NCBI GenBank assembly: GCA_028703535.1 | Contig: JAQVMQ010000007.1 | Location: 1-40,865 of the forward strand | Direction: 5' to 3' | Source: Candidatus Omnitrophota bacterium | Lineage (GTDB): Bacteria; Omnitrophota; Gorgyraeia; Duberdicusellales; 4484-171 | Length of the DNA stretch: 40,865 bases | Part shown: positions 27,950 to 31,162 of the stretch, piece after piece | How positions within the stretch are numbered: position 1 is the stretch's first letter | Layout of the letters: the number at the start of each line of letters is the position of its first letter | Position numbers and translations under genes: made by a program | The notes under the pieces: model-generated | What the model saw: the letters and a program-made list of their open reading frames with translations, nothing else | The model's database searches: none | Told to the model about the DNA's origin: nothing

Positions 27950-30900
27950 ATGCTTCTCTGGATAACGTTAACTAAAAAATGGTTATTTATCAAAACATCG
28001 GTACTAATCACTTTATTATGTTGGGTATTGGTTGGTTTTTCGTATGATTATTCAAAGGCTTTTGCCGGTGATTATTCTGAACTGTTACCTGAGCCTTCAA
28101 AACGGTTATCTTTAAGCAGTGAATTTGTCCCTGTGAGTATGCGCGGGTTAAGTGTCGATTCGCATAATCCGTTCAATTTTACATTTATTTTGGATACAGG
28201 GACTCAAGGTGATGTTCCGGATGATGAGTTGAAAATAGTCTCGGATAAACTTATCAAATATTTTATGGCGGCGTTAACTATCCCTCAGGATGAGTTATGG
28301 GTTAATTTGTCGCCTTATGAGAAAGAACGTATATCTTCAGATACACTTGCTGTAACGGACATGGGCGCAGATATGCTTTCGCAGGATTATATTCTTAAAC
28401 AAATTACAGCATCTGTAATGTATCCGGAAAGTGAGCTTGGCCGAAATTTCTGGGATAAGGTTATTGCTGAGGTTTATAAGAAATATAAGACGACTAATTT
28501 ACCGATAGATACATTTAATAAAGTTTGGGTTGTGCCGGATAGGGCTGTTGTTTATGAAGATAGCGCGCATGTTTATGTTGGGGAGAGGATGTTAAAGGTT
28601 ATGCTGGCTAATGATTATCTAGCGTTGAAAGAATCACAGATCAACAGCAATATGGGCTATTCAAATAATATGCCGACAAGTGATATAACAGATAAAATTA
28701 TGCGTGAGATTATACTGCCTGCTATCGAAAAGGAAGTTAATACGGGCGAAAATTTTCGTATTTTACGGCAGATATATGATGCGGCAATATTAGCTAAATG
28801 GTTTAAAGAGAAATTGAGGCGGCATATAGTAAATGAGATTTATTCGGACAAAGCAAAAGTTACTGGTATAGATTTGAAAGATAAAAATATTAAAAAGCAA
28901 GTTTATGAACGTTATCTTACTGCGTATAAAGAGGGTGTATATGATTATATACGCACTGATATTGAGCCTGAAACAAGTAAACGGTATAACCGCCGTTATA
29001 TATCCGGCGGTGTAGATTTCTCAAAATTTGAGGTAGATAGAGAGCCGATAGTGTTAATGTCCAAACAACCTGTCGTTGGGAAAACAGTTGAAGTTAATGA
29101 TGATATTGAGGGGGTGTCGTCTTCTGTTATTACAAAGTTTAATGTTATATCATCGGATCAGCTTTTCAAATTAGTTTCCGGGGAAATTAAAACTTCTTAC
29201 GAACGGGATGTTTTAATAAAGATTTTGCTTATTGCTGAAGGAGCGCATTCTGCTTATTATTCTAAAGATGACCTTTTTGATGCGAAGATACCGGTTGTTG
29301 TCCAACTGCTGAAAAATAAAGACTTTCTGGCCTTTCTTGAAAGTAAGAACGTAGGCCTAATATCTTTAGGCGACGGTGAAGTTTTGATATATAGCAAGCG
29401 TTCAGTGCGTAGGATAATAAAAGAGAAGATGAAGGTTTTTGAGACATTTGCTGAGTTGGCAGGTTTAATATCGAAAATCGATGATGATACGGCCTTACAA
29501 CAAATTATGGGCGATATTTTATTTCATGATAACGCTGATTTAAGCGGCGCTGTGTATCAATATTCTGATCTTTGGGATCTTATTATTAATAATGGAGAGT
29601 TTGCTGAGGAAGGACATAGCCTGGGATTTTACTTATCGAAAAGTGATAAGCCGGTTTTTTCTATTCCTGTGGCAATAGATGATGTTGATAGACTGGCAAA
29701 CAACTATTCGTTTATATTGCAATCTATTACCGGACATGAATCGCATTTCTTGGTTACAAGACCTGTGGTTTTAGATGAGAAAGTCGCTTTAAAGCGTCTA
29801 TTAGCCGATCTTGATATGGGCAATGTTAATATGGTCCAAATAGTACGTGCTGACAAGTCTGATGGATTCCATCAAGACGTTTTGGTCAAAAAAGATCTGA
29901 CTATTTTAATAAGTGATATTTTCCTTAAAAAAATTATAAATAAATTAAGGGGTTATACAGGCACTGATATTGAGACGCAAGAGGTAACCCTGATGGATAT
30001 GTTTTTTGCTGATACGCAAGAAGATACGGATACAGAGAGTTTTGCCGAAGATGCTGTTACCGTTAAAGATGAAGTTATGCAGTTTATCCTTGCTGTTGCT
30101 TTATTGCCCAGGATTGAGTATAAGTTAGCCTTGGATCTTGTTATGGGGACGGCCGCGGTTAATGAGGGTGTATTGAGAACGAAAGATATATTTGAGACAT
30201 TGACAAATAGCCGAGATAGTATCGCTAAAGAATATGGCATTTCTGTTTCAGACGTAAATGTGGTTGATACGTTTATAGATTCGGATATAGGTGCTCAAGT
30301 GAATAATTTCGAGGCGATGCGTAATTTAAAGAAGATAATTAAAACAGTGCGCAGATTTAGACGTATGGACCGTGATGTAGGGGATAATGAGGCTATCGAC
30401 GAGTTAGTATTGTATTTAAAAGAAATGCAGGATTTATATTTTGAGAATAATCCAGGCATGGTGAAAACTGGCAACCAGTTCATACGGATTAATCGTGATA
30501 AGCATGGGAATGATGTAATAATAATAGATGACATAAGCTTGAGTGTTTTTCTTGATGGTTTGAATAATGGGACTTTGAAGCTTAATCCGGATATGGGGAT
30601 TTCGGAAAAAAATCTTTGGAAATATGAGGCGATATTTTTGCAAAGGATATTGAGAGAAGTAGCATTTCCTCTTGAAGAGGCATCCCGGGTAGACGCCATA
30701 AACTATAAGGGCGAGAATTGGCAGGGAGAAGGTGATGTATGGAAGATAGTTAGTTTCGGAGATATTTTTGATGACAAGATTTATGGACATGAACGGCTTG
30801 AAATTAAATATCGTAAGCAGGGTTATTCATGGCGCCAAGCTCATAATAAAGCCGTTGAAGACACAGGGTATGGGGTGTCTATAACGGAAGACTTAGATAT

Positions 30901-31162
30901 TGATTCTGCCATTGGAAGTTCTTTTAGGGATGAAGATAACGGTGAAAAAATCAGCTCGTCGGTTAATCAGCAGATAGATAATCTTGGTGGTATAGACTTT
31001 AATATGGATAGTTTTGAATTGGAGCACGATCGATTGCGTTTGGATGATGGTTTCCTGAGTCATCAGGGTGAGCCTTTAGATTTGGAAGAGTTTAAAGGGT
31101 TTACTTTCCATATAATAAGGATAAAAAAGAATGGTAGTTTGAAAGAATGGTTTGAGATTTGA
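27950..31162 (+). CDS. Large secreted protein of unknown function (1070 aa, N-terminal signal sequence)
   Basis: Uninterrupted 1070-codon ORF, AAAGGA SD, hydrophobic signal ending ...KAFAG; no catalytic family recognised. N-terminal ~350 aa resembles a family I recall from Omnitrophota genomes. Confidence 0.85.
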   Translation: MLLWITLTKKWLFIKTSVLITLLCWVLVGFSYDYSKAFAGDYSELLPEPSKRLSLSSEFVPVSMRGLSVDSHNPFNFTFILDTGTQGDVPDDELKIVSDKLIKYFMAALTIPQDELWVNLSPYEKERISSDTLAVTDMGADMLSQDYILKQITASVMYPESELGRNFWDKVIAEVYKKYKTTNLPIDTFNKVWVVPDRAVVYEDSAHVYVGERMLKVMLANDYLALKESQINSNMGYSNNMPTSDITDKIMREIILPAIEKEVNTGENFRILRQIYDAAILAKWFKEKLRRHIVNEIYSDKAKVTGIDLKDKNIKKQVYERYLTAYKEGVYDYIRTDIEPETSKRYNRRYISGGVDFSKFEVDREPIVLMSKQPVVGKTVEVNDDIEGVSSSVITKFNVISSDQLFKLVSGEIKTSYERDVLIKILLIAEGAHSAYYSKDDLFDAKIPVVVQLLKNKDFLAFLESKNVGLISLGDGEVLIYSKRSVRRIIKEKMKVFETFAELAGLISKIDDDTALQQIMGDILFHDNADLSGAVYQYSDLWDLIINNGEFAEEGHSLGFYLSKSDKPVFSIPVAIDDVDRLANNYSFILQSITGHESHFLVTRPVVLDEKVALKRLLADLDMGNVNMVQIVRADKSDGFHQDVLVKKDLTILISDIFLKKIINKLRGYTGTDIETQEVTLMDMFFADTQEDTDTESFAEDAVTVKDEVMQFILAVALLPRIEYKLALDLVMGTAAVNEGVLRTKDIFETLTNSRDSIAKEYGISVSDVNVVDTFIDSDIGAQVNNFEAMRNLKKIIKTVRRFRRMDRDVGDNEAIDELVLYLKEMQDLYFENNPGMVKTGNQFIRINRDKHGNDVIIIDDISLSVFLDGLNNGTLKLNPDMGISEKNLWKYEAIFLQRILREVAFPLEEASRVDAINYKGENWQGEGDVWKIVSFGDIFDDKIYGHERLEIKYRKQGYSWRQAHNKAVEDTGYGVSITEDLDIDSAIGSSFRDEDNGEKISSSVNQQIDNLGGIDFNMDSFELEHDRLRLDDGFLSHQGEPLDLEEFKGFTFHIIRIKKNGSLKEWFEI

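Follow-up and report, generated by a model that had tools for sequence, protein, structure and literature searches.

An exported carrier family of Omnitrophota with interchangeable, often enzymatic middles and a possible role as delivered effectors

The Omnitrophota are a widespread phylum whose members have almost all escaped cultivation and are frequently regarded as host-dependent. Here we describe a gene from a 40,865-nucleotide stretch (the window) of contig JAQVMQ010000007.1 in assembly GCA_028703535.1 of a Candidatus Omnitrophota bacterium, encoding a protein of 1070 amino acids (aa). With moderate confidence we interpret it as a member of a polymorphic family of exported carriers in this phylum, in which a conserved N-terminal region (the N block) and a conserved C-terminal tail (the C-tail) provide the handle for enzymatic cargo in a variable middle, and whose members are possibly delivered effectors. 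The modular carrier and its export are well supported by comparison of homologous sequences; for the purpose of the family, transfer into other cells is the most probable candidate. Tiny Omnitrophota thus appear to export a wide range of enzymes, and perhaps to introduce them into other cells. The family, whose carrier is constant and exported, whose enzymatic cargo is swapped and whose copies number up to dozens in a genome, offers a concrete set of candidate effectors and provides two signatures, the N block and the GG[IV]D[FLM] tail, by which members can be located by sequence alone.

Constant ends and interchangeable middles

The N block spans about 315 aa, with 34 invariant positions across 89 aligned sequences, and terminates in YxSGG with an invariant GG. 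It matches no Pfam, NCBIfam or PDB family by profile or sequence. An AlphaFold model of the block is of high confidence (predicted local distance difference test, pLDDT, 89.6; predicted template-modelling score, pTM, 0.88), and a Foldseek search with its fold found no match in the PDB (best E 0.069, template-modelling score 0.14) and none among the BFVD viral models. As modelled, the N block is a new domain with a putatively new fold. No prior account of the N block or the tail was found in the literature searched, mostly outside subscription journals, and within that literature the family is previously undescribed.

A second copy of the same architecture is encoded in the same genome (contig C75, 1766 aa, same N block and tail), and the N block is present in 12 of the 58 relatives examined. 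A scan of 85,462 species genomes detected it in at least 494 loci; among the best 80 of these, 75 are titled Omnitrophota, Omnitrophica or Aceula, and the remaining five comprise two from Elulimicrobium (one metagenome bin), two labelled just as bacteria and one from a Planctomycetales bin. Mistakes in binning or naming may account for these five, and by its matches the family appears to occur almost only in Omnitrophota. Within the phylum, N blocks were found in 41 of 144 genomes, every one from the class of the window's genome. Complete N-to-tail members range from 681 to 3350 aa, and tandem arrangements of N-block genes whose middles are unrelated are common (L040, L046, L048, L055, L065, L081, L097, L107 and L108).

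At the other end of the protein, the C-tail covers 58–75 aa, opens with GG[IV]D[FLM] and has the consensus GGIDLNPAKLNLQIKGDGAGVPFNFDPAMLQRIQNENIEGFTPVIINITP. It is carried by 107 of the 121 N-block open reading frames (ORFs) complete at the 3′ end and by 67/75 in a first, smaller set, in which most tail-less members had runs of N or a frameshift, or were fragments or divergent. In two genomes, with 68–69 candidates in all, every scored candidate bears the tail (40/40 each), and all 18 tail-bearing genomes fall within the 41 of 144 that encode an N block (p about 5e-12). Judged from this co-occurrence, the coupling of tail and N block is apparently obligate. Modelled alone, the tail gave a low-confidence structure with no strands (pLDDT 66), which is consistent with the need for a partner, possibly the N block.

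Between these constant ends, the middle changes wholesale. Comparison of 154 proteins yielded 107 pairs with N blocks more than 70% identical, of which just eight showed any similarity in their middles, and 95 of the 154 middles resemble no other. In the most extreme case, two members from one genome (L144 and L145) have N blocks 92% identical and unrelated middles, and the N block of a radical SAM member (L076) is 81–85% identical to those of members carrying pyruvate phosphate dikinase (PPDK; L047) or trypsin (L072) and to that of L044. By these alignments, the middle is interchangeable behind near-identical N blocks, which is the signature of polymorphic effectors. The initial annotation of the window gene had predicted phylum restriction and conserved N and C blocks around a variable middle, all of which was borne out by comparison of homologues (the restriction being nearly complete); its main omission was that the middle is swappable and often enzymatic.

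Pfam matches at E < 1e-4 were obtained for 21 of 53 middles scanned, and 17 carried enzyme domains: radical SAM with a B12 domain (L066, L076), phosphoglycerate kinase (PGK; L109), PPDK (L047, L049, L091), glutamate dehydrogenase and alanine dehydrogenase (L097), SNF2 (L068), adenylate kinase with methyltransferase (L058), methyltransferase (L085), Maf/ARMT1/NDK (L041), starch-synthase-like (L048), UDPGP (L113), ATP-grasp (L089), trypsin (L072), M48 peptidase (L105) and phosphoesterase (L104). Other domains in the middles include LysM, HEAT repeats and TPR repeats. Most of these predicted enzymes are of kinds that are normally intracellular and would need ATP, S-adenosylmethionine, NAD or nucleotides. 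By residue inspection, Walker A, DEAH and motif VI are intact in the SNF2 middle, and the phosphoesterase GNHD, the M48 HExxH and the His/Asp/Ser of trypsin are all retained; we take these residues to be the catalytic motifs. In L097 (1379–4753), glutamate dehydrogenase is followed by alanine dehydrogenase in swapped order, the C part preceding the N part.

Export, cysteine depletion and the junction motifs

A crude rule recognised a signal peptide in 72 of the 86 members to which it was applied, and a crude scan found no transmembrane helices in 78 of 90 mature proteins. Cysteine makes up 0.14% of residues in the family, compared with 1.25% for the genes nearby and 0.61% for those neighbours that have signal-peptide-like sequences; over the 161,338 residues of the middles it is the sole strongly depleted residue, with a ratio of 0.11 (others 0.72–1.26). 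Despite this loss, radical-SAM middles retain their iron–sulphur (Fe-S) cysteine triad, and five middles keep CxxxCxxC with only 4–5 cysteines each in all (random placement gives 0.003). The simplest reading of these compositions is long residence outside the cytoplasm combined with retained Fe-S chemistry; if true, it would be remarkable in its own right that enzymes stripped of cysteine, save for that of the catalytic Fe-S site, are exported. Secretins are plentiful, at 4–8 per genome in 12/12 Omnitrophota genomes of 1.4–2.6 Mb (those of type II secretion, pilus and Tad systems being pooled), so that a type II-like exit of the family proteins is possible.

The initial annotation drew attention to two short motifs, GG[IV]DF and SSSV, each present twice in the window protein, and proposed that they mark module boundaries or else sites of processing or sorting. 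As 0.002 and 0.03 occurrences, respectively, are expected by chance in a 1070-aa protein of this composition, two of each exceed chance in this one sequence, and the six frames of the whole window contain no further GG[IVL]D[FL]. Across homologues, however, the end of the N block keeps [RK]Y[FY]SGG and has GG[IV]DF in 0/105 cases; GG[IV]DF was thereby ruled out as a duplicated motif, the 'VDF' there being incidental. The start of the tail has GG[IV]D[FLM] in 57/66. Both linkers show a four- to fivefold enrichment of SS[SPA], yet only a minority of members have it (17/63 after the N block, 11/63 before the tail). Within 45 aa before the GG of the tail, it occurs in 7/9 members of the window's own family (0.26 expected), 9/15 of a divergent clade (1.3 expected) and 17/119 of all other members (3.8 expected). 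The proposed boundary role is therefore upheld for the C-terminal pair, most clearly in the first two of these groups, and half upheld for the N-terminal pair, where YxSGG is kept and GG[IV]DF is not. Across these homologues, the apparent repeat of motifs is partly chance, and the C-terminal SS[SPA]...GG[IV]D[FLM] junction is real.

In the divergent N-block clade, represented by G155, G101 and G145 among other genomes, the conserved C-terminal block is of another kind: it measures about 110 aa, looks helical, opens with GG[IV]D[FLM] and usually has SSS or SSP before it (L195–L207 of G155, L211, L212). Two members from G121 (L209 and L210) end 13–17 aa past [GA]GIDL, as though nothing beyond the junction motif were required. 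As both groups keep the junction, GG[IV]D[FLM] outlives the tail behind it.

Related systems and the possible purpose of the family

Several known systems resemble the family in part. Giant ORFs of Omnitrophota, which include a 39,678-aa protein of Velamenicoccus archaeovorus, are likewise large, mostly unannotated and exported or surface-related, and are thought to serve cell–cell interaction; they differ in exceeding 20 kb (the window gene has 3.2 kb and family members mostly 0.7–3.4 thousand aa) and in their repeated transmembrane helices, which the present family is without, and the N block and tail are not described there (PMC10066038). Gigantic Omnitrophota proteins with Skillet-clade Lipocone domains share the presence of enzymes, histidine-kinase parts, methylases, peptidases and LysM, large size and a predicted role in predation; as far as the available part of that account goes, and comparing descriptions only, they are defined by Lipocone domains and transmembrane segments, with no N block or GG[IV]DF tail described (PMC12419801). 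Polymorphic toxin systems have a constant trafficking part, swapped effector domains and many paralogues, and the present family shares their exported carrier; its cargo, however, is internal rather than C-terminal, with a second conserved block behind it, and largely metabolic (PMC3482391). Substrates of type IX secretion combine a Sec signal with a conserved C-terminal domain of about 60–80 residues on unrelated cargo, but the present family has in addition a large conserved N block, and its lone tail is not predicted to be Ig-like (PMC11285876). The window protein has no match to a type IX C-terminal domain in NCBIfam, and SprA_N, of the SprA/Sov translocon, was matched in 0/12 genomes, although control genomes gave no matches either.

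In the mechanism we favour, the predicted signal peptide would take the protein across the inner membrane via Sec, the N block and tail would jointly serve as the handle in a subsequent step, be it export through the outer membrane, display at the surface or docking, and the work itself would fall to the middle. Less certainly, the enzymes may act in the cytosol of another cell to which these small, often host-associated bacteria attach, a destination suggested because of the cofactors they need and because other members of the phylum have been reported to be predatory or dependent on hosts (PMC10066038, PMC13153191). In a more specific and rather doubtful version, YxSGG and SS[SPA]...GG[IV]D[FLM] would be paired cleavage or docking sites, at which the carrier parts, having brought the cargo through the envelope, are cut away and a cysteine-poor, functional enzyme is freed into the neighbour's cytosol. 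If true, this would represent a new delivery pathway, by which ultrasmall bacteria could reprogram the metabolism of another cell using dozens of enzymes that they export.

A number of observations weigh against delivered enzymatic effectors. No transport machine or recipient is identified; cysteine loss speaks for export, not for injection; the window's genome carries just two copies; 32 of the 53 middles scanned, including those of the window protein and its paralogue, have no recognisable domain; and some enzymes are degenerate on residue inspection, the NDK domain being without its active-site histidine and PGK having diverged. ATP/ADP translocase, which marks energy parasites living inside cells, was considered as an accompanying indicator of host dependence and rejected: it is present in 24 of the 144 phylum genomes, none of which has an N block (Fisher p 3e-4), and the family therefore does not track an energy-parasite lifestyle. 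Relatedness may explain this exclusion, because the two groups lie mostly in different lineages.

Three alternative explanations were considered. A signal peptide and loss of cysteine would suit any exported protein, trypsin-like and M48 peptidases, LysM, HEAT and TPR would suit the outside of a cell, and the published giant Omnitrophota ORFs have been interpreted as adhesins (PMC10066038). The proteins could then be displayed on or released from the producer's surface, their middles serving as extracellular enzymes, binding modules or matrix in nutrient capture or attachment, with no delivery. We consider this unlikely, albeit with an appreciable chance of being correct: SNF2 helicase, PPDK, PGK, glutamate dehydrogenase, adenylate kinase and radical SAM have no obvious extracellular substrate or cofactor, and several retain catalytic residues. 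The degenerate domains, together with the fact that no outer-membrane route has been shown, would fit retention in the producer's periplasm or an internal membrane-bound space, where enzyme folds are co-opted as mostly inactive scaffolds or decoys. Activity is indicated instead by the motifs kept in the SNF2, phosphoesterase and peptidase middles and by the Fe-S cysteines selectively spared amid cysteine loss, which makes confinement to the producer as inactive folds improbable. That the family represents classical polymorphic toxins aimed at competing bacteria, with immunity genes adjacent, is suggested by the constant carrier, swapped effector parts and tandem copies, but is very improbable given that the variable part is internal, that recognised cargo is metabolic and not nuclease, deaminase or pore-forming, that PADLOC gave no match for the genome's two proteins and that, at the window locus, the gene is flanked by ruvB and a flavoprotein gene with no immunity gene beside it.

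The gene in the window

Inspection of the sequence confirmed the ORF, the signal sequence and all motif positions given in the initial annotation (Table 1). A Shine-Dalgarno-like AAAGGA lies immediately upstream of the start codon, and the sole cysteine of the protein, aa 24, falls within the signal peptide. Upstream of the gene are the housekeeping genes trpS-like, scpA and ruvB, and downstream are a flavoprotein gene (CoaC/Dfp-like), rmuC, a laccase-domain gene and glycine-cleavage genes; the source genome comprises 1.41 Mb in 90 contigs, of which the window is C30.

Table 1. Coordinates of the carrier gene and its parts, counted from the first nucleotide of the window
Feature	Position	Strand	Basis
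Whole gene: N block, variable middle and C-tail	27950..31162	+	ORF with ATG start, 1070 aa
Signal peptide, aa 1-39, ...SKAFA|G (boundary aa 39/40)	27950..28066	+	Sequence; homologues end ..AYA|Q/S at the equivalent position
Conserved N block, aa 40-354, ends RRYISGG	28067..29011	+	Alignments; AlphaFold model; no known family or fold matched
GGVDF, aa 353-357, at N-block end	29006..29020	+	Across homologues only GG and the preceding Y.S kept
SSSV, aa 390-393, linker after N block	29117..29128	+	Motif scan
Variable middle (putative cargo) of the window member	29135..30940	+	No Pfam match
Mobile module of ~65 aa, aa 916-983, consensus GGVKAINFKGTDGKWKIVGF..EHEREE..RKEG.SW..AHN	30695..30898	+	Recurs in other members' middles
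SSSV, aa 1002-1005, serine-rich linker ahead of tail	30953..30964	+	Motif scan
Conserved C-tail, aa 1013-1070, GGIDFN...GFTFHIIRI	30986..31159	+	Homologue comparison; GGIDF, aa 1013-1017, at 30986-31000

As a whole, the 1070-aa protein has no match in Pfam, NCBIfam or the PDB: Glyco_hydro_64 (E 0.09) fell far under the family cut-off, and matches to PF16483 and KfrB were dismissed as sub-threshold noise. For its middle, 386 genomes yielded no relative spanning most of the region, and the only part of the middle that recurs elsewhere is the mobile module, whose conserved H-E...H residues could, from their pattern, bind metal. In the middles of other members, this module (AINFKG.DG.WKIVGF..EHE.EE..RK.G.SW..AHN.A) sits at differing positions.
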